Virus record (IMG/VR): IMGVR_UViG_3300017783_002359
Location: 1 to 24,787 of that record
Direction: 5' to 3' (one strand)
Length of the DNA: 24,787 nucleotides
Source: a virus
Position 1 is the first letter of the stretch, and every line of letters starts with the position of its first letter. A model generated the notes under the pieces. The model made no database searches. It was not told where the DNA came from and saw only the letters and a list, made by a program, of their open reading frames with translations. The translations under genes and the position numbers were made by a program. Of the stretch, positions 1 through 24,787 are shown in pieces.

Positions 1-194
1 CAGAAATAACATTGACTGATAGTCACAATGTAGATGTAACACAAGACGGAAGTGGTGACCACAATGCCACAATTAATTTAAGTGGTAATACATCAACGAT
101 AGATTTGACACAGGATAGTAGTACCTCACAAAATTATTATCTTTATCAAAATTGTTCGCAAACTTCTTGCTCAGCCACTGTCACACAGAACTAA
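1..194 (+). CDS. Curlin-repeat-like protein, C-terminal fragment
   Basis: The reading frame is already open at the window edge (codons in phase with position 3), so only the last ~64 residues are visible and the start lies upstream. They form short alternating strands of the kind V-x-Q-x-G-x-x-x-N-x-A-x-I, for example DVTQDGSGDHNATI, followed by a variant repeat and a C-terminal NCSQTSC that could form a disulfide. The spacing of Q, G and N resembles the curlin repeats of CsgA/CsgB amyloid subunits, which are secreted and polymerise outside the cell. From memory, curli-related genes have been reported in pelagimyophages; I cannot verify a match here. It ends 10 bases before the adenylate cyclase gene, so the two are probably co-transcribed. 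It could instead be another repetitive beta-solenoid adhesin or a tail-fibre tip. Confidence 0.5.
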   Translation, partial: EITLTDSHNVDVTQDGSGDHNATINLSGNTSTIDLTQDSSTSQNYYLYQNCSQTSCSATVTQN

Positions 195-204
195 ATAGTA
201 ATAG

Positions 205-2070
205 ATGAAGAAATTATTTACACACTGGACTTTCGCTTTTGTTACCTTGTTCGCTCTCACATGGGTTGGACTACAAGACCCACAAATAAAAGAAATTCTT
301 AGGTTAAAATCATTTGACCTACAATTCCAAGCACAAGAAAAGGTAGTCTCACAAGACATTGCTATAGTTGAAATAGACGAGAAGTCTATGGAAATATATG
401 GTCAATGGCCTTGGAAGAGAGATATACTAGCAGGTCTTATAGAAGAATTAAGAATGGCAGAGGTTGGTGTCATTGTATTACCGATATTATTTGCAGAAGA
501 AGATAGATTAGGTGGTGATGAAGTTTTTGCCAATGCATTGAATGGTAATTTTGTAGTCATATCACAAACAGGTTCACATCAAACTACACAAAACGGATAT
601 CCTAGAGGTGTTGCCAAGATTGGTGACCCATTAAGTTGGTTATTTGAATGGCCTGGTATGGTAGGACCAATACCATTAATAGGTGAAAATGCAGCTGGTG
701 TAGGTACAACAAACACAGCACCTGAAATAGATGGTGTTGTTAGAAGAATGCCTTTACTTATGAAAATAGGTAATGATGTTTATCCAAATATTGCAATAGA
801 GGTAATTAGAGTTGCAGTTGGTGACCCTAGTTATCAGGTGAAAGCTAGTGACGCAGGTATTATTGCTATGCGTGTACCAGGTTTTGCAACAATCAATACC
901 GACCAACATGCAAGAATATGGTTAACATGGAATAAAGAATATAAAACAGTATCTTTAGCAGAAGCAGGACCAGGTGGGTTTTCAGAATTAAAAGGTAAAA
1001 CTATTATCATTGCACCCACAGCAGAGGGAATAGGTGGTGTGATTGCAACACCGACAGGTCAACAATATGATTATGTTGCCCTTGCCTCTACTTTACAAAC
1101 AGTTATAGATGGTGTCAATATAGAAAGAGTTGATATCTCATGGTTGATAGAATTGGCTGTTGCCTTTTTAGTAGGTGCCTGTATAATAGTCCTTACAAGA
1201 TTTACACCGTACTATGCAGTTGGAATGATGATGTTCTTCTTTGCAATTGCTTCAATATACGGTACAATATATTTCTTTGAAAGAAACATGTTAGTAGATG
1301 TCACTTGGATTTTAGTGACAATATTGTTTGTTGGTTTACATAGTATATTCAACAGATTTATTTTAGAATTTAGATTAAAACAACAGATAAGAAAACAATT
1401 TGAATCATACCTTGACCCACGACAAGTTGCCATATTACAAAAAGACCCTAGTAAATTGAAACTTGGTGGCGAAAGAAGAGAAATGTCTTTCTTATTCATG
1501 GACATTGTAGGTTTCACACCAATAAGTGAACATTATAAGAACAAAGATGACCCCGAAGGCCTTGTAGGTGTAATAAATGATTACTTAAATAGAATGAGTA
1601 AGATAGTAATGGATAATGGTGGTACTATTGATAAGTACATGGGCGATTGCATAATGGCATTCTGGAACGCACCCCTTGACTGTCCTAATCATGCGGAGAT
1701 GGCTGTTAAGACAAGTATAGAATGTGCTAAAGAAACACAGGCAATTAAAAAAGAGTTTAAAGAAAAAGGGTTACCAGAGATTAACATTGGTTCAGGTGTC
1801 AATACAGGTACTTGTATCGTTGGTAATATGGGTAGTGATATGAGGTTTGACTACTCAGTAATAGGTGACGCAGTTAATCTAGCTGCTAGGTTAGAGGCTG
1901 CGACAAGAAATTACAAAGACAAAAAAGGTAATGTTCTTGCTACATTATATTCTTCTTACACCATGGAACAATTGAAAGATGTTGACTCAATAGAAGTTGA
2001 CAAAATCAAAGTCAAAGGTAAAGAAGAGTTAATTACAATCTATAAACCTAAAATAAAGGAGGCTGATTAA
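205..2070 (+). CDS. CHASE2-domain class III adenylate cyclase, membrane bound
   Basis: This 621-aa protein has the complete architecture of bacterial CHASE2 adenylate/guanylate cyclases. There is an N-terminal helix (~8-24), an extracytoplasmic CHASE2 sensor (~27-310, with the SFDLQF start and the PEIDGVVRRMPLL core), three membrane helices (~312-331, 336-357, 362-380) and a cytoplasmic cyclase domain (~425-600). Metal-binding Asp are D433 (FMDIVGF) and D481 (KYMGDCIMAFW). The purine-selecting pair is K477 and D555, which predicts ATP rather than GTP. Transition-state residues N558 and R562 lie in AVNLAARLE. Nothing catalytic is missing, so an active cAMP-producing enzyme is predicted. The ATG at 205 starts directly at the first membrane helix; its ribosome site is weak. 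The curlin-like gene lies just upstream. Family assignment is firm; the sensed ligand and the role in infection are unknown. Confidence 0.93.
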   Translation: MKKLFTHWTFAFVTLFALTWVGLQDPQIKEILRLKSFDLQFQAQEKVVSQDIAIVEIDEKSMEIYGQWPWKRDILAGLIEELRMAEVGVIVLPILFAEEDRLGGDEVFANALNGNFVVISQTGSHQTTQNGYPRGVAKIGDPLSWLFEWPGMVGPIPLIGENAAGVGTTNTAPEIDGVVRRMPLLMKIGNDVYPNIAIEVIRVAVGDPSYQVKASDAGIIAMRVPGFATINTDQHARIWLTWNKEYKTVSLAEAGPGGFSELKGKTIIIAPTAEGIGGVIATPTGQQYDYVALASTLQTVIDGVNIERVDISWLIELAVAFLVGACIIVLTRFTPYYAVGMMMFFFAIASIYGTIYFFERNMLVDVTWILVTILFVGLHSIFNRFILEFRLKQQIRKQFESYLDPRQVAILQKDPSKLKLGGERREMSFLFMDIVGFTPISEHYKNKDDPEGLVGVINDYLNRMSKIVMDNGGTIDKYMGDCIMAFWNAPLDCPNHAEMAVKTSIECAKETQAIKKEFKEKGLPEINIGSGVNTGTCIVGNMGSDMRFDYSVIGDAVNLAARLEAATRNYKDKKGNVLATLYSSYTMEQLKDVDSIEVDKIKVKGKEELITIYKPKIKEAD

Positions 2071-2102
2071 TTATCTAACTAAAACTATTTTTAACTTTTA
2101 AA

Positions 2103-2110
2103 AAGGAGGT
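2103..2110 (+). promoter_or_regulatory. Strong Shine-Dalgarno serving a CTG start
   Basis: AAGGAGGT is a near-perfect anti-16S match, yet no ATG, GTG or TTG follows at a usable distance. The only codon at standard spacing (about 5 nt after GAGG) that opens a long frame is CTG at 2115. This site is the reason the short gene downstream is called. Confidence 0.6.
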
Positions 2111-2114
2111 CATT

Positions 2115-2312
2115 CTGACACGATTACAACAACGAAAATTGTATAAAGTAATTAAAAGAAAAAGAAGAGCAGACCATAGGACACGTTTATATTTGTTATT
2201 CAACCAGTGGGTCCTTATTAGAAAACAAAAAGATAGAAGAAGGAGGAAAACACAAAAAAAATTATATATGTTGCAAAGAAGTCGTGATTTAGGTCACCGT
2301 ATAGCAGCGTAA
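2115..2312 (+). CDS. Small very basic protein, apparent CTG start
   Basis: The frame encodes 65 residues from CTG at 2115, beginning (M/L)TRLQQRKLYKVIKRKRR and ending RSRDLGHRIAA. It is extremely rich in Lys/Arg, with basic clusters near residues 13-18 and 43-49 and hydrophobic/aromatic residues between (LYLLFNQW). That composition would suit a nucleic-acid-binding protein, but I recognise no family. Evidence that it is real is an ideal Shine-Dalgarno (2103-2110), an uninterrupted frame filling most of the gap between the cyclase and the next gene, and no competing frame. ATT at 2112 is also in frame but too close to the ribosome site. The first in-frame TTG (2139) has no ribosome site. A base error that destroyed an ATG is a possible alternative explanation. 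Confidence 0.5.
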   Translation: MTRLQQRKLYKVIKRKRRADHRTRLYLLFNQWVLIRKQKDRRRRKTQKKLYMLQRSRDLGHRIAA

Positions 2313-2437
2313 TTAACTAAATAATAATAGGACAATATAGTCAAGAGGTAAGATAAAACACTTATCATTAAGTAATAAACATGAGTCCTACTATTCCGTC
2401 CTTGCAAGGATAGTTATTAATCAGAGAGAGAAAACGA
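2313..2437 (+). other. Intergenic stretch with a perfect palindrome
   Basis: These 125 bases contain no gene above ten codons. They hold TCCTTGCAAGGA (2399-2410), a perfect 12-bp palindrome, and an overlapping alternative stem CTATTCC/GGATAG (bulged T) with a 10-base loop. A D-arm-like stretch lies at ~2336-2355, but no complete tRNA cloverleaf can be drawn. The element could be an untranslated structured leader of the next gene or a protein-binding site. Confidence 0.35.
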
Positions 2438-2866
2438 ATGTCAGATAATCAAATAACTGACCTCAAAGTAGAATTTGAAGGTCTTAAAAAAGACGTTAAT
2501 AATGTTATGAATCTGAACAGTCGTTTAGACACAGCTATTGAGAAGTTAACAGATGTATCATCACAAATCAAATCAATGTTGGCAGTACACGAAGAGAAGA
2601 TTGGTCGTCAAGAACAGATAGACGAAATCATCTTTGAAAAATTAAAAGACCGTGCTGATTCTATTGATAAGGTTCACAAAGAGTTATCAAAAGAAATGTA
2701 TCACGTAGAAAAGAGATTATTAATAGAAATTAAGTCTCTTAAGCTTGACATTTCAGGAAGAATCGGTATACTAGAGAGATACAAATGGTTAATTATGGGT
2801 GGCGCCATAGTCGTTGGTTGGTTCATAGCACTTAATGGTGGTGAACTCATAGACTTAATGAAGTAA
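2438..2866 (+). CDS. Coiled-coil protein with one C-terminal membrane helix
   Basis: This 142-aa protein begins with ~105 residues of heptad-like helix (IEKLTDVSSQIKSML, KLKDRADSIDKVHKEL, VEKRLLIEIKSLKLDI). One hydrophobic segment follows at ~117-133 (LIMGGAIVVGWFIAL), then a short acidic tail. Coiled coil plus C-terminal helix recalls XhlA-type phage membrane proteins, which assist holins, but the resemblance is one of layout, not of recognisable motifs. A purine-rich ribosome site (GAGAGAG) precedes the ATG at 2438. The gene is followed directly by a terminator, so it ends the cyclase-side transcription unit. It might equally be a membrane anchor for a phage complex. Confidence 0.75.
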   Translation: MSDNQITDLKVEFEGLKKDVNNVMNLNSRLDTAIEKLTDVSSQIKSMLAVHEEKIGRQEQIDEIIFEKLKDRADSIDKVHKELSKEMYHVEKRLLIEIKSLKLDISGRIGILERYKWLIMGGAIVVGWFIALNGGELIDLMK

Positions 2867-2885
2867 CCAGACTGGAATAGCTTTT

Positions 2886-2923
2886 TAAAAAAATAAGCGC
2901 TGGAAACCTCGGTGCTATTTTTC
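2886..2923 (+). terminator. Rho-independent terminator after the coiled-coil gene
   Basis: The stem AAAAATA(A)GC / GCTATTTTT (2889-2898 with 2914-2922, one bulged A) closes on a 15-base GC-richer loop, and the right arm supplies the U-tract. It sits 20 bases past the stop codon and just before a strong promoter. The loop contains AACCTC (2905-2910), which can alternatively pair with GAGGTT at 2930-2935. Confidence 0.6.
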
Positions 2924-2945
2924 TCGCTGGAGGTTCGCCACAGCA

Positions 2946-2974
2946 TTGACAAGGTGACTATATTATGTTATTAT
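2946..2974 (+). promoter_or_regulatory. Sigma70-like promoter for the primase-nrd operon
   Basis: TTGACA (2946-2951), a 17-base spacer and TATTAT (2969-2974) form a near-consensus host-type promoter. The -10 box ends 27 bases before the primase ATG. It follows the terminator at 2886-2923, marking a clean boundary between transcription units. Confidence 0.75.
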
Positions 2975-3001
2975 GTGTATCTTATCTTATGAAAGTATAT
3001 T

Positions 3002-4000
3002 ATGTCAAGTTACATTGATTTAAAGTTTATTAATGAAATATCTGCCAGATTGTCGCAGTTTAAAAAGAAGACGGATTATCTGTATAATTTCAGATGTCCC
3101 TATTGTGGCGATTCGCAGAAGTCTAAAACCAAAGCAAGAGCATATCTCTACAGAGTAAAGAATGATATGTTTTTCAAATGCCACAATTGTGGTGAAGGAC
3201 ACAACTTATCAAATTTTTTAAAATATTTGGATCCAAAGAAGTATGAAGAATACTTACTAGAAAGATACAAAGGTTCAGCACCCTCCACGTCTAAACCTAA
3301 ATTTGAGAATTTTGTACCTAAATTTGAAGAAAAAGATTTCTTAGCAAATCTTGTTTGTGTTAAAGACCTAGCAGAAGACCATCCGGTCACTGCTTACATT
3401 AATAACAGAAAAATACCTAATGAGTATAAGAGTAAACTTTATCTTTGTGATAAGTTTATGTCATTTGTAAATGAGGTAAAACCGAATACTTTTCCTCATA
3501 CAAAAGGCGAGCATCCTAGGTTGATTATACCTTTCTATGATGTTGACGGCAAAGCATTTGCTTTTCAAGGCCGTGCATTTGGAAAAGAACAACCAAAGTA
3601 TCTTACAATTAAGTTAGACGAAAATAAACAAAAAGTTTATGGTTTAGATACGATAAATTTGCATGAGCAGATTTACATTGTAGAAGGACCTATAGATAGT
3701 ATGTTTATTGATAATTGTTTGGCAGCTGGTGGTGCTGATTTAACATTGACAGTACCAGTAGAACAAGTCACATATATATTTGATAACGAACCACGTAACA
3801 AAGAAATTATCAAACGTATGTATGACTTAATTGACGCAGGCTATAATGTTGTTGTATGGCCTGAAGACCTACAACTGAAAGATGTAAATGATTTAATTAT
3901 TTCAGGAATGTCAAAGTTAGAGGTAAAAAATCTTATAAGTAAACATACGTATTCAGGACTAGAAGCATTAACCAATATGACCAAATTTAGAAAGTGTTAG
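3002..4000 (+). CDS. DNA primase, T4 gp61 type
   Basis: This 332-aa primase would synthesise RNA primers for lagging-strand replication with a DnaB-type helicase. The N-terminal zinc ribbon is C32-x2-C35 and C60-x2-C63. A TOPRIM-like catalytic core follows: VEGPIDSMF with E228, then FDNEPRNKEII (D261, N262, E263), a motif characteristic of the T4 gp61 group, and a Lys/Asp-rich stretch near 288-297 (EDLQLKDVND). Length is close to T4 gp61. The ATG at 3002 has only a weak ribosome site but follows the promoter at 2946 at the usual distance. It is the first gene of the operon and stops 13 bases before nrdA. Confidence 0.92.
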   Translation: MSSYIDLKFINEISARLSQFKKKTDYLYNFRCPYCGDSQKSKTKARAYLYRVKNDMFFKCHNCGEGHNLSNFLKYLDPKKYEEYLLERYKGSAPSTSKPKFENFVPKFEEKDFLANLVCVKDLAEDHPVTAYINNRKIPNEYKSKLYLCDKFMSFVNEVKPNTFPHTKGEHPRLIIPFYDVDGKAFAFQGRAFGKEQPKYLTIKLDENKQKVYGLDTINLHEQIYIVEGPIDSMFIDNCLAAGGADLTLTVPVEQVTYIFDNEPRNKEIIKRMYDLIDAGYNVVVWPEDLQLKDVNDLIISGMSKLEVKNLISKHTYSGLEALTNMTKFRKC

Positions 4001-4013
4001 GAGAAGGAGAAAC

Positions 4014-6341
4014 ATGACAGGAACAGAAAATATAAACGTACAAAAAAGAAACGGCCGAGGTACTGAACCTCTTAACATTGACAAGATACATGAAATGGTT
4101 GAATATGCTTGTGACGATATTACAGGCGTCTCATCATCACAAATTGAAATGTCCTCTGGTCTACAATTTTATGATGGTATTACTACAGATGATATACAAC
4201 AGATTTTAATTAAGTCAGCTTCAGACCTAATCACACTAGAAACTCCTAATTATCAATACGCAGCTGCTAGACTATTATTGTTTAGTCTTAGAAAACAGAT
4301 TTTCCATAGAATGTGGGACCACCCACATATCTATACTCACACTAAAAAAGGTGTTGAGTTAGGTGTTTACGATAAAACTATTTTAGAACATTATGATGAA
4401 AAAGATTTCAATAGAATGGAATCTTGGATTTCACATCAAAGAGATTATGATTTTACATATGCTGGGCTAAGACAAGTTATTGACAAATACCTTGTACAAG
4501 ATAGAAGTAATGGACAAGTATTTGAAACACCACAATTCATGTACATGTTAATTGCAGCTACTATCTTTGCAAATTATCCTAAAGACAAGAGAATGAGTTA
4601 TGTTAAAAAATATTATGACGCTACATCAAAATTTAAAATCAATATTCCTACTCCGGTTATGGCCGGTGTTAGAACTCCTATTCGCCAGTATGCTTCTTGT
4701 GTGTTGGTTGATGTGGATGATTCTTTGCCATCTATTTTCAGTAGTGATATGGCTATTGGCAATTACGTTGCACAAAGGGCTGGTATCGGTATTAACGCTG
4801 GGAGGATTAGAGGAATCAATTCCAGAATTAGAGGCGGTGAAGTCCAGCACACAGGAGTTATACCATTCCTCAAAAAGTTTGAGGCAACGGTTAAGTGTTG
4901 TACACAAAACGGTGTACGTGGCGGTTCTGCTACAGTGCATTTCCCTATTTGGCATAAAGAAATTGAAGATATTATCGTTCTCAAAAACAATAAAGGAACA
5001 GAGGACAATCGTGTTAGAAAACTTGACTACTCTATACAGATATCTAAAATCTTCTATGAAAGATTTATTAATGACGAAGAAATAACTTTGTTCTCGCCAC
5101 ATGAAGTACCTGAATTATATGAGTCATGGGGTTTACCAGAATTTGATGAACTGTATGAAAAGGCAGAAAGAAAAACTAGTGTAGAAAAAAGAAAAGTATC
5201 AGCACAGACATTGTTTATGGACATGTTGAAAGAAAGAGCAGAAACAGGTCGTATCTATATTATGAATATTGACCATTGTAATACTCACTCTAGTTTCAAA
5301 GACAGAATTTATATGTCTAACTTATGCCAAGAAATTACATTACCAACTACACCTATCACTCACATTGATGGTGAAGGAGAGATTGCATTATGTATTTTAA
5401 GTGCTATCAATGTTGGTAAATTAAATTACCTAGAAGATTTAGAAAGTCTTTGTGACCTTGCTGTTAGAGCATTAGATGAAATTATTGACCACCAAGAATA
5501 TCCTGTTAAGGCTGCCGAAGTATCTACAAAGGCAAGACGTTCTTTAGGTATTGGTTATATTGGTCTTGCACATTATCTAGCAAAACAGAAATTAAATTAT
5601 GCAGATAAAGAAGCATGGAAAGAAGTTGACGAATTAACTGAACACTTCCAATATTACCTATTACAAGCGTCAAACAACTTGGCAAAAGAAAAAGGTCAAT
5701 GTGATTATTTCCATAGAACAAAGTATGCAGACGGCATTTTACCTATTGATACTTACAAGAAAGAAGTTGATGATATTGTAAATCGTAAACTATCTATGAA
5801 ATGGGAACAGTTAAGAAAAGATATTAAAGAACATGGGCTGCGACACAGTACCTTATCAGCACAAATGCCAAGTGAGTCATCTAGTGTTGTTTCAAATGCG
5901 ACAAATGGTATTGAGCCACCAAGAGACTATCTATCAGTTAAAAAGTCTAAAAAAGGTACATTAAAACAAGTTGTACCAGATTATCATAGACTAAAGAACG
6001 CATATACTCTTTTATGGGACATGAAAGGGAATGAAGGATATATAAATATCGTTGCAGTAATGCAGAAGTATTTTGACCAAGCAATTAGTGGTAATTGGTC
6101 ATACAATCCTGAACAATATGAAGGTGGTCAAGTGTCTATTGCTCAAATGGCACAAGATTTATTGACAACTTATAAATTAGGTTGGAAGACTTCTTATTAT
6201 CAAAATACATATGATAGTAAGAAAGATGAAGACGAACCAGTCCATCCATTAGGTTGGAAAGACGAAGTAGAAGAAACTATACCCAGCACACTAGCAGCCT
6301 CACCAGAAGATGATGAGAACTGTGATAGTTGCACAATATAA
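4014..6341 (+). CDS. nrdA: Ribonucleoside-diphosphate reductase, alpha (class Ia)
   Basis: The large subunit reduces ribonucleotides to deoxyribonucleotides for phage DNA synthesis. The 775-aa protein begins with an ATP-cone-like region (~9-95, VQKRNGRGTEPLNIDKIHEM). The redox pair is C229 (ASCVLVD) and C460 (IALC). The active site is N436-L-C438-Q-E440, equivalent to NLCLE in E. coli. The radical-relay tyrosines are Y728-Y729 (TSYYQNT), and the C-terminal reductant pair is C770-x2-C773 in CDSC, tighter than the CxxxxC of E. coli. Ribosome site AAGGAG precedes ATG 4014. nrdB follows after 14 bases, and a phage glutaredoxin lies at 20634. No intron or intein interrupts it. Confidence 0.97.
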   Translation: MTGTENINVQKRNGRGTEPLNIDKIHEMVEYACDDITGVSSSQIEMSSGLQFYDGITTDDIQQILIKSASDLITLETPNYQYAAARLLLFSLRKQIFHRMWDHPHIYTHTKKGVELGVYDKTILEHYDEKDFNRMESWISHQRDYDFTYAGLRQVIDKYLVQDRSNGQVFETPQFMYMLIAATIFANYPKDKRMSYVKKYYDATSKFKINIPTPVMAGVRTPIRQYASCVLVDVDDSLPSIFSSDMAIGNYVAQRAGIGINAGRIRGINSRIRGGEVQHTGVIPFLKKFEATVKCCTQNGVRGGSATVHFPIWHKEIEDIIVLKNNKGTEDNRVRKLDYSIQISKIFYERFINDEEITLFSPHEVPELYESWGLPEFDELYEKAERKTSVEKRKVSAQTLFMDMLKERAETGRIYIMNIDHCNTHSSFKDRIYMSNLCQEITLPTTPITHIDGEGEIALCILSAINVGKLNYLEDLESLCDLAVRALDEIIDHQEYPVKAAEVSTKARRSLGIGYIGLAHYLAKQKLNYADKEAWKEVDELTEHFQYYLLQASNNLAKEKGQCDYFHRTKYADGILPIDTYKKEVDDIVNRKLSMKWEQLRKDIKEHGLRHSTLSAQMPSESSSVVSNATNGIEPPRDYLSVKKSKKGTLKQVVPDYHRLKNAYTLLWDMKGNEGYINIVAVMQKYFDQAISGNWSYNPEQYEGGQVSIAQMAQDLLTTYKLGWKTSYYQNTYDSKKDEDEPVHPLGWKDEVEETIPSTLAASPEDDENCDSCTI

Positions 6342-6355
6342 AGAGAGAGAGAAAA

Positions 6356-9574: not shown

Positions 9575-10251
9575 TGATAAACATTTTTATTGGTTATGAT
9601 AGTAAAGAAAAGGCAGCCTTTTCTACACTAACGTATAGTATTTTACAGAATAGTACAAAACCAGTTGCAATTACACCAATTGCTTTAAACAATATTAAAG
9701 ATGACTTTGTAAGAGAACGTAATAGTTTATCTTCTACAGAGTTTAGTTTCAGTAGATTTATTATACCACATTTGATGAATTACCAAGGTTGGGCAGTATT
9801 CATGGATTGTGATATGTTAATGAGAACGGATATTAACGAACTATGGCGACAGAGAGACGACAAGTATGCCGTACAAGTAGTCAAACATAATTACGTACCA
9901 AAACATAACAAAAAGTTTTTAGGTCAAACACAAACAGCATACGATAAAAAGAATTGGTCTAGTGTCATGTTGATGAACTGTAAGAAGTGTACACAACTAA
10001 CACCAGACTATGTAAACAAAGCAAGTGGTTTAGAGTTACATCAATTCAAATGGTTAGAGAGTGATGACTTAATTGGTTCTATAGATAAAACTTGGAACTG
10101 GTTAGTAGGCGAATATGAATATAATCCTGAAGCAAAGAATATACACTTTACAGAGGGTGGTCCTTGGTTTAAAGATTATGAAAATGTTGATTATGCAAAA
10201 GAGTGGTTTGAATATTATTTTGAATCAGGAACGGTACAGATTAAAAAATGA
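9574..10251 (+). CDS. Putative glycosyltransferase, GT8-like
   Basis: The 225-aa protein starts INIFIGYDSKEKAAF, typical of GT8-like GT-A folds. STEFSFSRFIIPHLM follows, then AVFMDCDMLMR with D78-C-D80 as the DxD metal site, and near the end a histidine in HFTEGGPWF, matching the third metal ligand of the family. It starts within the stop of the previous gene (TAATG) and its own stop overlaps the next start (ATGA). It probably adds a hexose to an LPS-like or virion glycan. Sugar and acceptor are unknown. Confidence 0.8.
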   Translation: MINIFIGYDSKEKAAFSTLTYSILQNSTKPVAITPIALNNIKDDFVRERNSLSSTEFSFSRFIIPHLMNYQGWAVFMDCDMLMRTDINELWRQRDDKYAVQVVKHNYVPKHNKKFLGQTQTAYDKKNWSSVMLMNCKKCTQLTPDYVNKASGLELHQFKWLESDDLIGSIDKTWNWLVGEYEYNPEAKNIHFTEGGPWFKDYENVDYAKEWFEYYFESGTVQIKK

Positions 10252-11111
10252 GTATTGAGTGTTTTTTAACAGGTGTAGGTAAAGATAAATTCTTATTGAA
10301 CTTGGCTACTAGTCAGAATGGTATCATACATCAACCAGAATTAGGTAGAAACGAAAAGATTAAACCATTTGATAATGCATTTTGGCCTACGTTTAATAAA
10401 CGTGAGTGGACTAAAAATCCTATTGCAGTTATAGGTACATTAAGAGGTACACATGAATTAATACAACTTGCAATGCAAAGAAAACATACATTTTATTATT
10501 TGGACCATGCATACTTTCACGCTACAAGAAATTATGTACCTGGTCCACATGGTAGATTGTATAGAATGATACGAAGTCAATTACAACTTAATTATAATGT
10601 GATGTTAGAAGATGAAGATTGGAAAAGAATTAAGAAGTATGGTGAGCCAAAAAGACCCAAAGAATTTGTTAAACAAGGTAGTGAAATATTAATTATACCA
10701 CCTACAGAGGCCATTGCCAGAGTGTATGGTTTTGATGTACCATATTGGTTAGAAAAAACACAAAGAGATATTAGAGCATTTACAGATAAAGTAATTAGAA
10801 TTAGATATAAAGATACAGACATACCTTTACAAGAAAGTTTAAAGAACGCATATTGTGTTGTTGCTTTCCAATCTACAGTTGCTATAGAGGCAATTTTATC
10901 TGGTATACCTTGTATTGTGGATCCTATTTCACAAGCAAAACCAGTTTCAAGTACCACTATTGCAGATATAGAAGAATTATATTATCCTACAGAAGATGAG
11001 ATTATGTTATGGCAGTATAGTTTACTAGCATGTCAATTTACAGAAAACGAATTTAAAACAGGCGAGGCTTATGAAGCCACAAACAGGTTACAACATGATA
11101 ATTGGATTTAA
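10248..11111 (+). CDS. GT-B-like glycan protein, tandem paralog 1
   Basis: First of three adjacent related genes (287 aa). The C-terminal half holds VVAFQSTVAIEAILSGIPCI (~203-222), the pattern seen at the nucleotide-binding site of capsule-type GT-B transferases, then AKPVSS, W-x5-AC-Q and a terminal GEAYE. The N-terminal half has FYYLDHAYFHATRN and YRMIRSQLQL, which align by eye with WYVDVGYL and FRIVRGGIH in the paralog at 12063. A polymerase or Kdo-transferase-like role in polysaccharide assembly is plausible, but the assignment rests on fold-level pattern. ATGA overlap with the previous gene. Confidence 0.65.
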   Translation: MSIECFLTGVGKDKFLLNLATSQNGIIHQPELGRNEKIKPFDNAFWPTFNKREWTKNPIAVIGTLRGTHELIQLAMQRKHTFYYLDHAYFHATRNYVPGPHGRLYRMIRSQLQLNYNVMLEDEDWKRIKKYGEPKRPKEFVKQGSEILIIPPTEAIARVYGFDVPYWLEKTQRDIRAFTDKVIRIRYKDTDIPLQESLKNAYCVVAFQSTVAIEAILSGIPCIVDPISQAKPVSSTTIADIEELYYPTEDEIMLWQYSLLACQFTENEFKTGEAYEATNRLQHDNWI

Positions 11112-13045: not shown

Positions 13046-13819
13046 ATGAAACAAGATTTGATTATTATTGGTTATGGTCACGTAGGCAAAGCAGTTGATA
13101 AGATTTTAAATCCTATACACAGAATTGTCGCAATTGATATTGAGGGTTACCAAAAAAATACAATCACAAAGCACGAAGGATATTCAGCAAAGGGTATCAT
13201 TGTTTGTGTGCCTACACCAGAGGCACCAGATGGTAGTTGTGATATTTCTATAGTAGAAAAAGTATTACAAGAAAGTAATAAATTAAATCTTCCAGTATTA
13301 ATTAAGAGTACCATTTCAATAGATGGTTACGCTGAACTAGCACATAAATATAGTATTACATATAGTCCAGAGTTTTTAAGACAAAAACATGCTGTTGACG
13401 ATATGAAGAATGTTAAAGACATTTTTATTGGTGGTGCAGACGTACCATTTTGGGTAGATGTATTACGAGAGGTGTATCCTATGACAGTTAAGATACATGA
13501 ATGTAGTGTACCTGAAATGATAATGACGAAGTATATAAGAAATTCTTTCCTTGCAACAAAGGTAGTTTTCTTTAATGAGATATTTCAACTTTGTAAGAAA
13601 CTTGACATAAGTTACGACAAGGTGGTTTCAATGGTAGAGAAAGATGACAGGATTGGATCCAGTCATATGAAAGTACCAGGTGACCACGGTAAAGGATATG
13701 CCGGTGCATGTTTTCCAAAAGACGTGAAAGCATTTTTAAGAACGGCAGAAAAATCAGCAACTAGACTATCTGTTTTACGAACAGTAGATAAAACAAATAG
13801 GCAACTGAAAGGTGACTAA
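13046..13819 (+). CDS. Truncated UDP-glucose/GDP-mannose dehydrogenase-like protein
   Basis: The 257-aa protein carries the NAD-binding Rossmann motif GYGHVG (9-14), the family strands VCVPTPEAPDG (~53-63) and KSTI (87-90), YSPEFLR (106-112), the central-domain K162 and N166 (KYIRNSFLATK), and the catalytic cysteine C222 in GACFPKD. Known family members oxidise the C6 hydroxyl of a UDP- or GDP-hexose to a uronic acid. Those enzymes are typically about 390-450 aa. Here the C-terminal nucleotide-sugar-binding domain is absent, the protein stopping ~35 residues after the cysteine. It abuts both neighbours, so the short form looks genuine rather than a frameshift. It could bind substrate differently or partner another protein. 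Confidence 0.82.
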   Translation: MKQDLIIIGYGHVGKAVDKILNPIHRIVAIDIEGYQKNTITKHEGYSAKGIIVCVPTPEAPDGSCDISIVEKVLQESNKLNLPVLIKSTISIDGYAELAHKYSITYSPEFLRQKHAVDDMKNVKDIFIGGADVPFWVDVLREVYPMTVKIHECSVPEMIMTKYIRNSFLATKVVFFNEIFQLCKKLDISYDKVVSMVEKDDRIGSSHMKVPGDHGKGYAGACFPKDVKAFLRTAEKSATRLSVLRTVDKTNRQLKGD

Positions 13820-14056: not shown

Positions 14057-14733
14057 ATTTTGTATGTGTATATTATGGTAAAAAATATCAGGTTGAGTAT
14101 GTACAACACCTGTATAATATGGTTGAAAGACATACAAGAGTACCGTACAATTTTATCTGTTTCAACAACCACGAAGATTTAGCATTAAAAGTAAAAGGCG
14201 ACATAGAGTATCGTAGATTTCATTACACCGATTTTGATGGTTGGTGGAATAAACTACAACTATTCAGTCCAGAGGCAGGTCTAGTAGGACCTAATCTTTA
14301 CATGGACCTTGACGTAGTTATATTAGATGATATTGATGACCTTTTTACCTTTGGTGATGACCAAACGTTTGGTGTAATCAGAGACTTCAACCCTTCCACA
14401 AAACAGTACAACTCTTCTATAATGAAATGGAATAATACCGTTGGTACACCATGTATATGGGAACCATATCTATTAGAACGTGATAAGTGGAACAGAGAAC
14501 AAGGCGACCAAAATGTCATGTCTCTATTAATGCAAAAACATGGTCAACGGTGGTTACGTACTATGCCAGATGAGTGGACTTTTAGTTACAAATGGAATAA
14601 TAGAATAGAACCAAGATATCATAAGAACGACTGGACTTTTGAAAAGGTCAGCGAATCGAAGGTGGCCGTGTTCCACGGTAAACCAAATCCTCACGAATCA
14701 GAGCAGGAATGGGTCAAATCCAACTGGTGTTGA
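14053..14733 (+). CDS. Putative GT-A glycosyltransferase
   Basis: This 226-aa protein begins MNFVCVYYGKKY and has WWNKLQLFSPEAGL then LYMDLDVVILDD, with D85-L-D87 as the DxD site. GDQNVMSLLM and a terminal HGKPNPHE give further metal and acceptor-site residues. The arrangement matches small GT-A enzymes found in phage and bacterial glycan loci. Start 14053 overlaps the previous stop (ATGA); an upstream in-frame GTG at 14041 lies inside that gene. It is the last gene of the operon that starts at 2946. Confidence 0.78.
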   Translation: MNFVCVYYGKKYQVEYVQHLYNMVERHTRVPYNFICFNNHEDLALKVKGDIEYRRFHYTDFDGWWNKLQLFSPEAGLVGPNLYMDLDVVILDDIDDLFTFGDDQTFGVIRDFNPSTKQYNSSIMKWNNTVGTPCIWEPYLLERDKWNREQGDQNVMSLLMQKHGQRWLRTMPDEWTFSYKWNNRIEPRYHKNDWTFEKVSESKVAVFHGKPNPHESEQEWVKSNWC

Positions 14734-17302: not shown

Positions 17303-17331
17303 TTGCCATTTGAAACGTTTTATGATAGTAT
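17303..17331 (+). promoter_or_regulatory. Sigma70-like promoter
   Basis: TTGCCA (17303-17308), 17-base spacer, TAGTAT (17326-17331). The -10 box ends 30 bases before ATG 17362, the same distance as at 22544/22575 and close to 2974/3002. Weaker than the others in sequence, but its position between hairpins and a new gene run supports it. Confidence 0.55.
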
Positions 17332-17361
17332 TATTAACAAATAAACAAAAGGACATATATT

Positions 17362-19308: not shown

Positions 19309-19463
19309 GTAGAATAGAACATATAAAAAGACTAGAAAAAGAAGTCAAAGAAAAAGAAGAATTGATGGAGTTTGAGAATAACCCATCCACGCTTGCCTTA
19401 TATGAGGAAGAAGTGTATAATACTAAACAATCAATAGAGAGTTTAAAAAATGCAAGACCCTAG
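19305..19463 (+). CDS. 52-aa coiled-coil protein
   Basis: Starts at ATG 19305 in an ATGA overlap with the lipoprotein stop; an in-frame ATG at 19266 lies inside that gene and is rejected. The product is almost entirely charged helix (RIEHIKRLEKEVKEKEELME, then LYEEEVYNTKQSIESLKN) with heptad spacing, so a short dimeric coiled coil is likely. It ends 14 bases into the next gene. Too short for the usual cutoff; its operon position supports it. Confidence 0.65.
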   Translation: MSRIEHIKRLEKEVKEKEELMEFENNPSTLALYEEEVYNTKQSIESLKNARP

Positions 19464-19839: not shown

Positions 19840-19982
19840 TGATAAAAAATATCATTATCATTGCGTTATTGGTAATATTATACAACAGTGGAATCGTTGA
19901 TAAACAACAGATTTTGGGAATTGTTCAATCCAGCATTGACTTTATCCAAGAACTAGTGTATGATGTATCTGAAAATGTATAA
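19839..19982 (+). CDS. 47-aa single-helix membrane protein
   Basis: ATG 19839 overlaps the preceding stop as TAATG. The product has an N-terminal hydrophobic helix (IKNIIIIALLVILYNSG, 2-18) and an amphipathic tail (QILGIVQSSIDFIQELVYDV). The layout resembles small phage inner-membrane proteins. A good internal promoter (19936-19964) lies inside its coding region. Confidence 0.6.
   Translation: MIKNIIIIALLVILYNSGIVDKQQILGIVQSSIDFIQELVYDVSENV
19936..19964 (+). promoter_or_regulatory. Internal sigma70-like promoter before the LPP20-like gene
   Basis: TTGACT (19936-19941), 17-base spacer, TATGAT (19959-19964), 41 bases upstream of ATG 20006. It lies within the coding sequence of the 47-aa protein and would give the lipoprotein-glutaredoxin part of the operon extra transcription. 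Confidence 0.5.
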
Positions 19983-20005
19983 AAAAGAAAGAGTAGTAAT
20001 ATAAA

Positions 20006-20644
20006 ATGATGAAAAATGTGAAAGTAATTGGTTTAGTATCGGCTCTGGCATTAATGTCGGCGTGTTCTACTAACAGTTACAAGATTGTCCAAGAGGACAA
20101 AGAGAAGTTGACTAAAGTACCAAAGTGGTACATGGCTGACTTCAACGAGAAGAAGGCTTGTGACATGTCATTTATGGCAGACAACGGTCTTATTAAAACA
20201 GATGATGACGGTAAAGTATGTATCTTTGGCGTAGGAACTGCTGTTTCGCCTGACCTTAATCTTGCAATAGAAAAAGGTAAAATGATAGCAAAGGCTGAGT
20301 TAGCTGATATTATCAAAGGTGAAATGAATAAACAATCTAAACAATTTATTACCGAACTTGGTAAGAATCAAACTAAAACTGTAGTATCAGATGTAGAATC
20401 TACTTTGGTAAATATTATCAAAGAAACTAAAGTTAGAGGTTATGAAATCTTTGAACAAGATGTTACAATGACTAGTAATGGTTATTATAGAGCATGGATA
20501 GGATTAAGATTACCAATGGGCGAGTTTAATAAAATGTTCCACTACACGATTGAAGAAGCAACAGACTCTTATAATTTAAAAGAGGCGTCTTCTGAAGCGT
20601 TTAAGAAAGTGGTTGAAAACAATGAGAAGAAAGATGTCCAGTAA
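20006..20644 (+). CDS. LPP20-like lipoprotein
   Basis: A 212-aa predicted lipoprotein with signal region VKVIGLVSALALMSAC, C20 being the lipidated cysteine. The mature part includes GVGTAVSPDLNLAIEKGKMI and AKAELADIIKGEMNKQSKQF (~75-114). This is the G-x-G-x-A-S-x-D-x-x-x-A-x-x-x-A helix-strand pattern of LPP20-type lipoproteins, followed by VRGYEIFEQDVTM and a strand-rich YYRAWIGLRLP. Such domains sit at the outer membrane of Gram-negatives. Two consecutive ATGs (20006, 20009) are possible starts. The last 11 bases overlap the glutaredoxin gene. Function in a phage is unknown. Confidence 0.72.
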   Translation: MMKNVKVIGLVSALALMSACSTNSYKIVQEDKEKLTKVPKWYMADFNEKKACDMSFMADNGLIKTDDDGKVCIFGVGTAVSPDLNLAIEKGKMIAKAELADIIKGEMNKQSKQFITELGKNQTKTVVSDVESTLVNIIKETKVRGYEIFEQDVTMTSNGYYRAWIGLRLPMGEFNKMFHYTIEEATDSYNLKEASSEAFKKVVENNEKKDVQ

Positions 20645-20906
20645 TATAATCATATACTCAAAGTCTAACTGTGTGTATTGTAATAAAGCAAAGGCGTTAG
20701 TTAAAAACCTTGGTTTAGAATACACAGAGAAGGCTTTAGAATCCTTTGATTCACCTCAAGCAATGCTTGAAGACATTGGTAAGAATGTTAGACAAATGCC
20801 TCAAATTAAAATTGATGGCGAACTGATTGGTGGTTATAATCAATTAGTAGAACATTTTGCCAAACAAGGTAAAGTGAATTTCAAGGGAGAAAAAATAAGT
20901 GAGTGA
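20634..20906 (+). CDS. Glutaredoxin
   Basis: The 90-aa thioredoxin-fold protein has the redox motif C13-V-Y-C16 directly after a beta strand (IIIYSKSNC), the cis-proline in RQMPQIKI (P56) and the GGY (66-68) glutathione-binding turn. It reduces the C-terminal cysteines of ribonucleotide reductase, so it is the natural partner of the NrdA/NrdB encoded at 4014-7459, like NrdC in T4. ATG 20634 is preceded by GAGAAG. An in-frame upstream ATG (20613) would add seven basic residues inside the previous gene. Confidence 0.93.
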   Translation: MSSNIIIYSKSNCVYCNKAKALVKNLGLEYTEKALESFDSPQAMLEDIGKNVRQMPQIKIDGELIGGYNQLVEHFAKQGKVNFKGEKISE

Positions 20907-21372
20907 TAACGATAATCTAATATTTTTTCCAACAGATAAAATAGTACGTGAAGTCAAAACTAAAAGACAAGAAACAGAGTATGCTAAACAAATTAAGAAA
21001 CAACAGACTAAAGAATTTGTTGAACACTCCGTTGATGACATTGCTTTTGACCTTTTACGTAAATTTGTTGACATTGGTATTCGCACAAAGAATGATAACT
21101 TTACAAAAGACCTTGCGATAGTGATAGACAGTATTAGAGGTTTAGTGTACAGAGATTTTGATATGGCTCATCCGGCTCAATTGTTATCTACCAAAATGGT
21201 ACAATTAAAAACAATGAGAGACGGTACACATAAGAGTGCCAAAATAGATTATAGTAGTTTGATGGATGAAACAAGACCAAAAACTACAAGACCTTTGTCA
21301 AAGGATATAAAAGATGAATTGAACCACCTACAAGATGGTGGTGACATGTTCACTCCTGATGATGAATTATAG
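20899..21372 (+). CDS. Conserved T4-type phage hypothetical, GTG start
   Basis: Begins at GTG 20899 behind AGGGAG, 8 bases before the end of the glutaredoxin gene; the product is 157 aa. Features are an N-terminal NLIFFPTDKIVREVKTKRQ, a helical core (FVEHSVDDIAFDLLRKFVDI, then FTKDLAIVIDSIRGLVYRDF), MAHPAQLLSTKMV, and a disordered acidic tail (HLQDGGDMFTPDDEL). The order 'FPT ... helix ... AIVIDSIR-x-x-x-YR-x-x-x-x-HP' resembles small uncharacterised proteins of T4-type cyanophages. I considered a gp33-like late-transcription factor but see no convincing match. Confidence 0.75.
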   Translation: MSDNDNLIFFPTDKIVREVKTKRQETEYAKQIKKQQTKEFVEHSVDDIAFDLLRKFVDIGIRTKNDNFTKDLAIVIDSIRGLVYRDFDMAHPAQLLSTKMVQLKTMRDGTHKSAKIDYSSLMDETRPKTTRPLSKDIKDELNHLQDGGDMFTPDDEL

Positions 21373-21502
21373 AATTCAGACGAGCATACTACAAATGTAC
21401 GATATGTCTTGTTGAATAGTGGCGACTAAACGCAATTGAGGAGCAATTATGCTAAAATACATTATGAATAAGTTAAACGCTAAAAAACAAGGAGATGTTA
21501 AA

Positions 21503-21769
21503 ATGGCTAGAACTAAAATGTCAAAAACGACAAAAGTGAGAAATCTTTTCTCAAAAGGTAATTCTGTTACTTGGAAGACTCTAAGAAACACATTTGACCT
21601 TAAATCACCAGCTGCAATGGTTGGTAAATTAAGAAACGAAGGTATGATGATTTATGAAAATAGAACATCTGCTGGAGTATCTTACAGAGTAGGAACACCA
21701 TCAAAAGCTGTTATCGCAGCTGGTCAAACTGCTTTGTTTGGTTCACAAGGTTACGCTGTATCAGCATAA
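21503..21769 (+). CDS. Small helix-turn-helix-like protein, two possible starts
   Basis: The 88-aa form starts MARTKMSKTTKVRNLFSKGN behind AAGGAGAT. TWKTLRNTFDLKSPAAMVGK, LRNEGMMIYENR is a winged-helix-like DNA-binding pattern, then a strand GVSYRVGTPSKA. I recall similar MART-x-K proteins in T4-type cyanophages. An in-frame ATG at 21449 has its own good site (TGAGGAG, 5-base spacing) and would add MLKYIMNKLNAKKQGDVK, giving 106 aa. Both forms may be made. A terminator (21791-21828) follows. Role as a transcription regulator is inference. Confidence 0.75.
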   Translation: MARTKMSKTTKVRNLFSKGNSVTWKTLRNTFDLKSPAAMVGKLRNEGMMIYENRTSAGVSYRVGTPSKAVIAAGQTALFGSQGYAVSA

Positions 21770-21780
21770 CCCTTTAATTT

Positions 21781-21857
21781 TGAGGCGGACACCGATGGTT
21801 TTATTAGTTTATCCCATCAAGGTTTTTTCATATCTACCTTTCTTTCTGTCCGCCTCA
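21781..21857 (+). repeat. 11-bp inverted repeat enclosing a terminator
   Basis: TGAGGCGGACA (21781-21791) and TGTCCGCCTCA (21847-21857) are perfect complements and stand out as the most GC-rich stretch of the intergenic region. They enclose 55 bases that contain the terminator hairpin. The whole 77-base unit ends 12 bases before a T4-like late promoter. Confidence 0.7.
21791..21828 (+). terminator. Rho-independent terminator after the HTH-like gene
   Basis: ACCGATGG (21791-21798) pairs with CCATC-(AA)-GGT (21814-21823), eight pairs with a bulged AA, followed by TTTTTT (21823-21828). Loop of 15 bases. It lies 22 bases after the stop codon. Confidence 0.68.
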
Positions 21858-21869
21858 TTATCCTCCATG

Positions 21870-21877
21870 TATAAATA
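21870..21877 (+). promoter_or_regulatory. T4-type late promoter
   Basis: TATAAATA is the T4 late-promoter -10 sequence recognised by gp55 sigma; no -35 box is needed. It lies 39 bases before ATG 21917 and outside any gene. The same octamer inside nrdA (near 6041) is coding and not counted. Confidence 0.65.
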
Positions 21878-21916
21878 TACTAGTATGAAATTATTAAACA
21901 AATTGGAGAATTAATC

Positions 21917-22447
21917 ATGGTACAACAAAACCCAAATCTAATAAGCAAAGCTGCAATGACAGCCATGCAATCAACCTCTGGTTCAAGTGAACCATTGTTG
22001 TCAGAAATTTTAACAAAAGTAAACAACGCAAAAGATAAACCTAAAAAGATTGCCGTTTTAAAAGAAAACGATAGTCCACATTTAAGAATGATTTTAAAAG
22101 GTGCATTTGACCCTAACATTGTATGGGATTTACCAAAAGGCACACCACCATTTATACCAAATGAAGTACCAGCAGGTACCGAACATAGTTGGTTGAGAAC
22201 AGAATCAAAAAAACTATGGCATTTTGTCAAAGGTGCAGATGATGGAACTAAAAAAGTATCTAAAGAAACTATGTTCTTACAAATCCTAGAAGGATTACAT
22301 GTTGACGAGGCAAACGTACTCTTAAATATGAAAGACAAGGTTCTTAATAAGAAGTATAAAGGTTTAACTGAAGCAGTGGTTAAGGAAGCGTTCAATTGGG
22401 ACGATAATTTTGTTAAAATTGAAAAAGGACCGTCTTATCCTGTCTAA
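21917..22447 (+). CDS. DUF6433-type T4-like phage protein
   Basis: This 176-aa protein matches, from memory, a family widespread in T4-type cyanophages and marine phages. Its blocks are KKIAVLKENDSPHLRMILKG, AFDPNIVWDLPKGTPPF, NEVPAGTEHSWL, LWHFVKGADDGT, ETMFLQILEGLHVDEANVLL and LTEAVVKEAFNWDDNF. Function is unknown. GGAGA precedes ATG 21917. It stands alone between a late promoter and a separate sigma70-like promoter, so it is probably a late gene, for example a morphogenesis or virion component; that is inferred from the promoter only. Confidence 0.8.
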   Translation: MVQQNPNLISKAAMTAMQSTSGSSEPLLSEILTKVNNAKDKPKKIAVLKENDSPHLRMILKGAFDPNIVWDLPKGTPPFIPNEVPAGTEHSWLRTESKKLWHFVKGADDGTKKVSKETMFLQILEGLHVDEANVLLNMKDKVLNKKYKGLTEAVVKEAFNWDDNFVKIEKGPSYPV

Positions 22448-22516
22448 TTTAGAACAAAAATAGAACAAATCACTACAAAACACAGTAAAATAAGTCTTTT
22501 TAGCTAAAGAAAGTGC

Positions 22517-22544
22517 TTGACTTTGTTGTCGGAACCTGTATAAT
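22517..22544 (+). promoter_or_regulatory. Strong sigma70-like promoter
   Basis: TTGACT (22517-22522), 16-base spacer, TATAAT (22539-22544) with TG extension. Upstream are a palindrome TTTAGCTAAA (22499-22508) and an AAAGT/ACTTT repeat around the -35 box. The -10 box ends 30 bases before ATG 22575. Confidence 0.75.
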
Positions 22545-22574
22545 GGTACCATAAATAATAACAAAGGATATATA

Positions 22575-22901
22575 ATGAAAAAATTAGTATTAATCTTCTT
22601 CGCAATTTACTTGGCCTCTTGGTCAGTGGTGAGTTGTGCTAAAGCAGATGATTATAATACTGCCGTAGTTGGTCACGTTATCACACAAAAAGTACAAGGT
22701 AATAATGTTGACATGTCAGTGTTTGAAGCTGAACTACAAAAAATGTTTGCTATCTTTGCTTTGCAAGTTGCAGACCATATGGAAAAGAATTTACCTATGA
22801 TTATGGAAACCATCACTGCTCAGTTAAGACAAGAGATTGACAGTAAACATAAGTGTTTGCTATTGAAAGATAGTAAAATCACTGATAAGGAATGTTCATA
22901 A
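22575..22901 (+). CDS. Exported small protein, 108 aa
   Basis: N-terminal signal peptide (KKLVLIFFAIYLASWSVVSC, then AKA-DD), probably cleaved after residue 24. The cysteine at 21 is not in a good lipobox. The mature ~84 residues are helical (FEAELQKMFAIFALQVADHM, then METITAQLRQEID) with two late cysteines (HKCLLLKDSKITDKECS) that may pair. It should be periplasmic. AAAGGAT ribosome site. It leads a unit that later encodes a cell-wall hydrolase, so an envelope or lysis-related role is possible but unproven. Confidence 0.75.
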   Translation: MKKLVLIFFAIYLASWSVVSCAKADDYNTAVVGHVITQKVQGNNVDMSVFEAELQKMFAIFALQVADHMEKNLPMIMETITAQLRQEIDSKHKCLLLKDSKITDKECS

Positions 22902-22904
22902 TAT

Positions 22905-23213
22905 ATGGCAAAGAAACCAACTAGCAAAAAACTAAAGTACGATATACCAGAGATACCATTTACATATGATTTCTATTTGGTGTATTGGGAGGATATTCAA
23001 TCCGACGCTGGTTGGAAAACAATGAAAGAAATTCAAAACATGAAACCTGCTATCTGTGTATCAACTGGTTGGTTGGTAAAAGAAGATAGACAAGTACATG
23101 TATTGATGAGTGACTACAATTATGAAGAGAATGGTGACTTGGCAGATGGTGGTAACACAACAGTTATACCTACAAAGAACGTTATCAGAAAATTCAAAAT
23201 TGCAGATTTATAA
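22905..23213 (+). CDS. Hypothetical protein, 102 aa
   Basis: Starts three bases after the previous stop. A basic N-terminus (MAKKPTSKKLKYDIPEIPFT) precedes a strand-rich domain: YDFYLVYWEDIQSDAGWKTM, then KPAICVSTGWLVKEDRQ and VHVLMSDYNYEENGD. The final strand is NVIRKFKIADL. The GW-LVKE-Y pattern recalls small phage proteins with an SH3-like fold, but I recognise no named family. Confidence 0.72.
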   Translation: MAKKPTSKKLKYDIPEIPFTYDFYLVYWEDIQSDAGWKTMKEIQNMKPAICVSTGWLVKEDRQVHVLMSDYNYEENGDLADGGNTTVIPTKNVIRKFKIADL

Positions 23214-23239
23214 TATAACAATCCTGGGAGGATTACATA

Positions 23240-23572
23240 ATGAGTAAGCGAAAGACTAAAGAACTAGACCACCACCTCAAAAACATTATTGGCAAAGTGC
23301 CAGACATGTTAAAAAACTTCATAAAATCAGACGAGCAACAACTATTATACTATTCTGGCGAATGGGCAAAAGATGTATATGATAACTTCACTGAAAAACA
23401 GGCTGAAAAAATATTTGGTAAGATTAAGAAATTACAACCTGACCTAATGTTCTTTCAAAAAAAACTACCTGAATTTACAGATGAAGAGGGTCATGTGTAT
23501 GGTGGTTACGATTACATTGCTCGTAAAAAACATATAAGTAGAAACAAATTCATAGTACGTAGAGGTAGATAA
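23240..23572 (+). CDS. Hypothetical basic protein, 110 aa
   Basis: A strong ribosome site (GGGAGG) precedes ATG 23240. The protein is basic with a helical N-terminal half (LDHHLKNIIGKVPDMLKNFI) and a YYSGEWAKDVYDNF segment. It ends in a lysine/arginine-rich tail (ARKKHISRNKFIVRRGR). No catalytic motif seen. Its stop overlaps the glucosaminidase start (TAATG), so the two proteins are likely made together. Confidence 0.72.
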   Translation: MSKRKTKELDHHLKNIIGKVPDMLKNFIKSDEQQLLYYSGEWAKDVYDNFTEKQAEKIFGKIKKLQPDLMFFQKKLPEFTDEEGHVYGGYDYIARKKHISRNKFIVRRGR

Positions 23573-24243
23573 TGAGAAAATCATTAATCCGAATCAAAGA
23601 GGCTTTTGAAAAGTTTTTTACCATTGCAGGCGTTCTTGCTGTTATAGCTTTAATAGCGTGGTTAACCTATGGTACACCACCAGAAGCAAATGAACTACCA
23701 GAAGACCTTACAACAGAAGACGTAAACGAGATAGTTGAAACAGAAGAGAAGTTTGATGTAGAACAAATATTGGTTGAAAAACCAGACTTTGAACATAATA
23801 GTAATCAAACTTTTTTAATCAGTGTACGTGGGTGTATTCATTATATTGAGAACACCACTACAGATATATTACCAGTAAACCACGAACTATTACTAGCACA
23901 GGCGGCTTTAGAGAGTGGTTGGGGTACATCTAGGTTTGCCAAAGAGGGTAAGAATTTATTTGGCATACGTACATATGATTTGAGAGAACCACATATGTTA
24001 CCGTCAAACAATCCTAAAAAGTGGGGTGTAAAAGTTTATTCGCATGAATGTGATTCTGTTTTACACTATATGAATATCTTAAACAATGGTAGTGCCTTTG
24101 GTGATTATCAAAATTTAAGAGACACTATAGGTATTGATGACCCATTTCCATTAGTTGAAACATTGGATGCTTATGCCTCTGATAAAAACTATTTTGGCAA
24201 AGTTAGGTCTATTATCAGGAAGATACAAAAAGAATACAACTAA
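23572..24243 (+). CDS. Membrane-anchored glucosaminidase-type muralytic enzyme
   Basis: The 223-aa protein has a basic N-terminus, one membrane helix (~17-33, TIAGVLAVIALIAWLTY) and an acidic linker (~36-70). A C-terminal glucosaminidase/Bax-type domain follows (LLLAQAALESGWGTSRF, ~107-122, with E114 as the probable catalytic Glu, then GKNLFGIRTYD and a YHECDS-like segment, and ASDKNYFGKVRSII). Enzymes of this fold cleave peptidoglycan glycan strands. The anchor, instead of a cleavable signal, suggests a signal-arrest type endolysin or a lytic enzyme tethered in the periplasm. It could also help tail-associated entry. Confidence 0.85.
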   Translation: MRKSLIRIKEAFEKFFTIAGVLAVIALIAWLTYGTPPEANELPEDLTTEDVNEIVETEEKFDVEQILVEKPDFEHNSNQTFLISVRGCIHYIENTTTDILPVNHELLLAQAALESGWGTSRFAKEGKNLFGIRTYDLREPHMLPSNNPKKWGVKVYSHECDSVLHYMNILNNGSAFGDYQNLRDTIGIDDPFPLVETLDAYASDKNYFGKVRSIIRKIQKEYN

Positions 24244-24251
24244 ATATAACC

Positions 24252-24787
24252 ATGTTAACAATATTCATAACTTTCATTAGTGCGATTTCTATATCTATAA
24301 TAGCCGCTGGTTATTCTATTATGGGACTTGCCACATTATTCGCAGGAGCAGTGCTTCCCATTATTGCTATGGGTAGTGCATTAGAGGTTGGTAAACTTGT
24401 AGCCGCCTCTTGGTTGTATAATAACTGGAACAATAAACTTGTACCACAAACTATAAAGGCCTATCTTACATTTGCCGTTATAGTATTAGTCTTTATCACA
24501 TCTATGGGTATCTTTGGTTTCTTATCAAAGGCACACCTTGACCAAGTACAACCACAATCAAGTAACAATATTAAAATAGAGTTGTTAGATAATCAAATCA
24601 AACAACAGAATATAATTATATACAGGTCTCAAAAGACTTTAACTCTATTAGACAAGGCATTAGAGAAATATGTTGACATGGAATATGTCACAAGAGGTCT
24701 TAAAGAAAGAGAAAAACAAAAACCTGAAAGAGACGCCTTAACACTTGCAATTAATAATGCTAGTGATAAGATAACAGAATTATCAGA
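24252..24787 (+). CDS. Membrane and coiled-coil phage protein, 3' end cut by window
   Basis: Open from ATG 24252 to the window edge (178 codons plus two bases). Three membrane segments are visible: ~4-22, ~24-42 and ~70-92 (FAVIVLVFITSMGIFGFL). Between them lies LEVGKLVAASWLYNNWNN (~44-61). After residue ~105 a charged coiled coil begins (LLDNQIKQQNIIIYRSQ and on). From memory, proteins with the 'GKLVAASWLYNNWN' block occur widely in marine T4-type phages with no known function. It starts 8 bases after the glucosaminidase stop. Confidence 0.8.
   Translation, partial: MLTIFITFISAISISIIAAGYSIMGLATLFAGAVLPIIAMGSALEVGKLVAASWLYNNWNNKLVPQTIKAYLTFAVIVLVFITSMGIFGFLSKAHLDQVQPQSSNNIKIELLDNQIKQQNIIIYRSQKTLTLLDKALEKYVDMEYVTRGLKEREKQKPERDALTLAINNASDKITELS

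Follow-up and report, generated by a model that had tools for sequence, protein, structure and literature searches.

Avoidance of GATC with an exemption for GGATCC in T4-like phages of SAR11 bacteria

GATC is under-represented in all 46 studied phages whose hosts encode a matching enzyme (PMC6286503), and for phages of the SAR11 bacteria of the ocean the available part of PMC9516812 describes depletion of GANTC, with purged and unpurged groups. The stretch of DNA considered here (positions 1..24787 of IMG/VR virus record IMGVR_UViG_3300017783_002359; the window) is an incomplete genome of 24,787 bases from a T4-like SAR11 phage (pelagimyophage), and it has lost nearly all GATC outside GGATCC. 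As in the phages of PMC6286503, a palindromic recognition word is depleted genome-wide; the differences from those phages are an exact zero outside one flanking context, near-binary behaviour among close relatives, the involvement of several tetramers and the lack of a known cognate enzyme in the SAR11 host group. As with GANTC, SAR11 phages divide into purged and unpurged for a short word (PMC9516812, in the part available); however GANTC, given there as the host cell-cycle methylation motif, is near normal in the window (42 copies against 54 expected), where the purged word is GATC, and the available part of that paper describes neither purges of GATC, TCGA, ACGT and CATG nor an exemption of GGATCC. 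The OM43 phage Melnitz, which is T4-like and a relative of the pelagimyophages (PMC9004378), is likewise purged of GATC (23 copies against 498 expected) but differs in that GGATCC itself is depleted (3 against 12.9) and in encoding a C5 (HhaI-like) methyltransferase. In cluster B3 mycobacteriophages GGATCC is likewise prominent among GATC contexts (PMC4841201), although there GATC is enriched overall, whereas here all but GGATC(C) has been removed. SAR11 itself has been reported to be nearly free of restriction-modification in the available parts of PMC9516812 and PMC7029224.

An earlier note, made from the letters of the window alone, had placed GATC only at 3230, 10920 and 13656, each within GGATCC, and these positions were confirmed exactly. 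The first site (3229..3234) reads TTG GAT CCA (Leu-Asp-Pro) inside a primase-like gene (3002-4000), the second (10919..10924) GTG GAT CCT (Val-Asp-Pro) inside an open reading frame (ORF) at 10248-11111, and the third (13655..13660) GGA TCC (Gly-Ser) inside an ORF at 13046-13819 for a putative nucleotide-sugar dehydrogenase. In keeping with the several tens of copies that the note had anticipated, second-order and first-order Markov models and base composition predicted 60.1, 54.9 and 74 copies respectively, while synonymous-codon shuffling of the coding sequence, at about 50, gave 48.5 +- 5.8 with a lowest count of 36 in 60 shuffles and with none of 200 shuffles reaching three or fewer; these expected counts are model-based, with two different kinds of null (Markov and codon shuffling) in agreement. 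Of the 256 tetramers, none is as depleted in the window as GATC. GGATCC is not depleted (3 copies against 1.1 expected) and the other 15 NGATCN contexts are absent (0 against 59 expected); since GGATCC makes up less than 2% of the Markov-expected GATC sites (1.1 of 60), the presence of all three copies in GGATCC is not due to chance. The avoidance of GAT-C junctions that had been noticed by eye also held, with aspartate codons before a C-starting codon reading GAC 54 times and GAT twice against 146 and 303 elsewhere (Fisher p ~1e-21), both exceptions being two of the three GGATCC sites. Likewise, the isoleucine codon ATC never follows a G-ending codon but follows other codons 78 times. Neither composition nor codon use nor protein sequence accounts for so few GATC in the window, and the effect is larger than the note had claimed.

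The gene for the ribonucleotide reductase large subunit (nrdA, 4014..6341, plus strand) served as the anchor for finding relatives and building a tree, the encoded NrdA being 88% identical to that of Pelagibacter phage Mosig and 78% identical to that of HTVC008M, both T4-like myophages with Candidatus Pelagibacter ubique HTCC1062 as listed host. The comparison with relatives that the earlier note had proposed extended both the depletion and the reading of GGATCC as an exempt context. Mosig (141 kb) has 19 GATC against 366 expected with all 19 in GGATCC (5.4 expected), and HTVC008M (147 kb) has 83 against 379 expected, all of them reading GGATC on one strand or both: GGATCC occurs 28 times (6.3 expected), one-sided GGATC 55 times (86 expected) and the remaining contexts not at all (287 expected). 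A 177-kb IMG/VR contig shows the HTVC008M-like pattern. Across 281 phage units assembled from four viral scans, 94 had no GATC at all outside GGATC, 13 had an observed/expected ratio of 0.1-0.3 for these contexts and 171 exceeded 0.3, such that the purge is nearly all-or-none between units.

Three classes were distinguished by the complete absence of the other contexts, the numbers of GGATCC playing no part in the definition. Class A, with the window and Mosig, keeps GGATCC alone (51 against 31.7 expected; the rest 0 against ~1857). Class B, with HTVC008M, tolerates GGATC on one strand, with observed/expected counts of 208/206 for GGATCA, 35/40 for CGATCC and 53/228 for AGATCC and with HGATCD at 0 against ~1273. 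In class C, made up of partial contigs only, the general purge is absent and only the palindromes AGATCT, CGATCG and TGATCA are low (0.11-0.25 observed/expected); many other palindromic hexamers are low there too, so GATC is not singled out by this deficit. At least eight changes of the purged state are needed on the NrdA tree, and well supported branches force six of these. The hosts of the metagenomic phages were inferred from isolates.

GATC is also purged from SAR11 podophages, in two unrelated groups, HTVC011P having 0 copies against 81 expected and HTVC019P 0 against 95, with nearly all of 158 related contigs purged as well. GATC is likewise missing from HTVC121P and Bylgja, which were isolated on different strains of SAR11; in HTVC010P and HTVC200P GATC is not purged. 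Here the flank gives no exemption: in 153 GATC-purged podophage contigs GGATCC stands at 0 against 50.9 expected and one-sided GGATC at 0 against ~690. Since the podophages purge GGATCC too, the exemption is not universal for GATC cutting around SAR11 but goes with the myophages, and is a property of these phages or of the particular enzymes that they meet. In HTVC011P and HTVC019P (L468, L469) GGCC and GCGC are also wholly absent and GANTC nearly so.

The loss of sites is very probably due to selection by DNA cutting, not to composition or deamination. In codon-aligned orthologues only 2.5% of class C GATC sites (20 of 811) are retained in class A, compared with ~20-50% for control tetramers, and amino acids are unchanged in 58% of the replacements in classes A and B. 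The equal depletion of host DNA that would have spoken for another cause was not seen, SAR11 DNA having 339 GATC against 332 expected in 109 kb. As such the restriction footprint proposed in the earlier note stands, with sites lost mostly through synonymous changes, while the DpnII/MboI/Sau3AI-type enzyme or MutH to which it might be ascribed was found by homology in none of 297 Pelagibacterales genomes. The phenomenon is restriction-site avoidance, of a kind already known, its flank-dependent exemption and near-binary switching being unusual.

The explanation that we favour couples restriction selection with graded cutting at G-flanked half-sites, a combination with an even chance of being right. 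Part of the host population would have an endonuclease directed at GATC that destroys site-bearing DNA, and purifying selection would clear GATC from this SAR11-phage lineage. G-flanked half-sites would be poor substrates, the strand reading G-GATC being hardly cut; GGATCC, with both strands G-flanked, would thus survive in class A, while in class B only double cuts would matter and one G-flanked strand would be enough. The myophages may be exposed less severely than the podophages, or to a different enzyme. The gradient within class B, in which AGATCC stands at 0.23 of expectation and GGATCA at 1.0 (p still ~1e-8 when class C is taken as the baseline), and the nested order of tolerance from podophages through class A and class B to class C count for graded cutting, as does Melnitz, where GGATC contexts are kept at 0.087 against 0.029 for the others (p 0.01). 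The flanks of GGATCC hold nothing beyond the AT-rich background and no extended motif.

That the tolerance of GGATC(C) reflects half-site cutting is suggested less strongly than the selection itself, and several observations weigh against the combined explanation. The families of DpnII (DpnII/MboI; PF04556) and of MutH/Sau3AI (PF02976) had no match above cut-off in the 297 Pelagibacterales genomes, in a protein-family search that misses unknown families and in host genomes that may be incomplete. The laboratory host HTCC1062 propagates purged and unpurged phages alike. A single flank-preferring enzyme would require a difference in exposure, or a second enzyme, to account for podophages that purge GGATCC and one-sided GGATC. 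Class A keeps GGATCC fully yet has no GGATCA, a step sharper than a smooth preference.

The rival that survives best, although rather unlikely, is that ordinary GATC restriction meets a protected context, in which GGATC is modified by a phage or host methyltransferase, double modification making a site safe in class A and half modification being enough in class B. The split between the classes is what full and half modification would predict, and the confinement of the exemption to myophages, with none in GATC-purged podophages, fits as well. AlwI, which recognises GGATC, has family members among the restriction genes adjoining adenine methyltransferases in two or three Pelagibacterales genomes (L639:1276-3006, L446:2469-2954). 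In HTVC008M, however, no DNA methyltransferase was recognised by PF02086, by local MT-A70, N6_N4, D12 and C5 profiles or as a convincing DPPY-type motif, which would still allow for host-encoded modification, and a sharp GGATC motif leaves it unexplained that class B has four times fewer copies of AGATCC (that is, GGATCT) than of GGATCA. Because HTVC008M lacks a recognisable DNA methyltransferase and tolerated sites are graded, we regard graded cutting as about twice as likely as modification of GGATC. The MT-A70 methyltransferase of Mosig was considered as a protector and rejected, as many unpurged phages have it too and HTVC008M yielded no relative. The Mosig record terminates within an MT-A70 methyltransferase gene (L001:1-232 with L003:41033-41461), the frame being broken across the record ends, and the deposited sequence is probably missing some bases there.

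Because unrelated SAR11 podophages share the purge, the cutter would appear to be host-encoded rather than phage-encoded, a common host-side pressure being a simpler account than separate nucleases in the individual phage groups. Restriction-modification genes do occur in the order: among the 297 Pelagibacterales genomes a C5 methyltransferase was above cut-off in 56 and a strong match to a D12 methyltransferase was present in nine. In some genomes a divergent nuclease neighbours the D12 gene; it is related to a cyanophage nuclease annotated as GIY-YIG, a label that rests on the annotation of these relatives, the nuclease itself having no match in a Pfam search. The cyanophage relatives likewise sit beside an adenine methyltransferase, and the pair looks like a restriction system common to SAR11 and cyanophages. 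GATC is normal in cyanophages carrying the GIY-YIG/methyltransferase pair, so that no specificity of the pair for GATC is demonstrated, and DpnM is only a distant relative of the D12 methyltransferase of SAR11. In L438, L440 and L444 a Dam-like D12 adenine methyltransferase adjoins groEL; it is paired with the nuclease in some genomes and solitary in L443.

It is improbable that the cutter is instead a phage-encoded sequence-specific nuclease that degrades host DNA, with the phage clearing its own genome of the site. The exactly zero counts look as though each infection were a test, and one GATC-purged pelagimyophage contig (L422:12815-13375) encodes a nuclease related to the GIY-YIG-type one of SAR11 and cyanophages, no methyltransferase having been found next to it. 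Nevertheless, this nuclease is confined to the one contig, being absent from Mosig, HTVC008M and the 177-kb contig, and podophages that are unrelated and have few genes are purged likewise. Clustering of ~4400 ORFs from 287 units, with a test for association with the purged state for GATC, ACGT, CATG, TCGA and CCGG, gave only weak, lineage-confounded associations and no clean nuclease or methyltransferase, in a test weakened by the partial state of the unpurged genomes. A C5 methyltransferase beside MT-A70 was seen in unpurged phages only (24 of 24), in a single clade that amounts to one independent pair and from which no claim is drawn.

Deamination of methylated cytosine in GATC, or mismatch-repair (MutH/Dam) processing, is a very remote explanation for the loss of sites without restriction, as the HGATCD replacements in class A do include the deamination products GATT (58) and AATC (18) but are led by GACC (136; GGTC 32), a spectrum unlike that of deamination, counts are zero across thousands of expected sites and MutH was not found in the host-order genomes.

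GATC is not the only word affected. The purge of TCGA, missed in the earlier note, is almost as strong in the window, with a sole copy (14656..14659) against ~39 expected from codon shuffling. CGCG (0 against 5) and AGCT (22 against 55) are also low, the palindromic hexamers TCATGA, AGTACT, TCTAGA, ATCGAT and TTCGAA stand at zero, and ACGT, CATG, CTAG and GTAC show no depletion in the window. Mosig lacks ACGT (0 against 166 expected) and the 177-kb contig has 0 CATG against 445 expected and 1 CCGG against 61, while CGCG is near zero in the window, Mosig and the 177-kb contig alike. ACGT stands at exactly zero in 50 units and CATG in 77, both distributions peaking at zero; tetramers are thus purged in phage-specific combinations. 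The leftover copies of ACGT, CATG and TCGA have no sharp flanking context, unlike the exempt copies of GATC.

With so many relatives purged alike, these patterns suggest heavy DNA-cutting pressure in bacteria thought to be nearly enzyme-free. Tentatively, they could reflect either a strong and largely unrecognised SAR11 restriction, directed at GATC and other tetramers with an endonuclease of an undescribed family unable to cut G-flanked half-sites, or an undescribed modification of GGATC in pelagimyophages; if so, a new restriction or counter-restriction activity would be at work in a phage-host system that ranks among the most abundant. SAR11 phages bear some very clean restriction footprints, with not a single copy where thousands would be expected, near on/off switching from phage to phage and an exemption at the flank that differs between phage types. 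As such the absent words would name the cutting specificities, while the exempt GGATC(C) would separate cutting preference from DNA modification, and the repeated gain and loss of the purge could help to infer the host range of uncultured phages.

Elsewhere in the window, Pfam matches were obtained for CHASE2/cyclase, RuvC-like, FkbM-methyltransferase and glycosyltransferase genes. Around nrdA the genes are ordered much as in Mosig.

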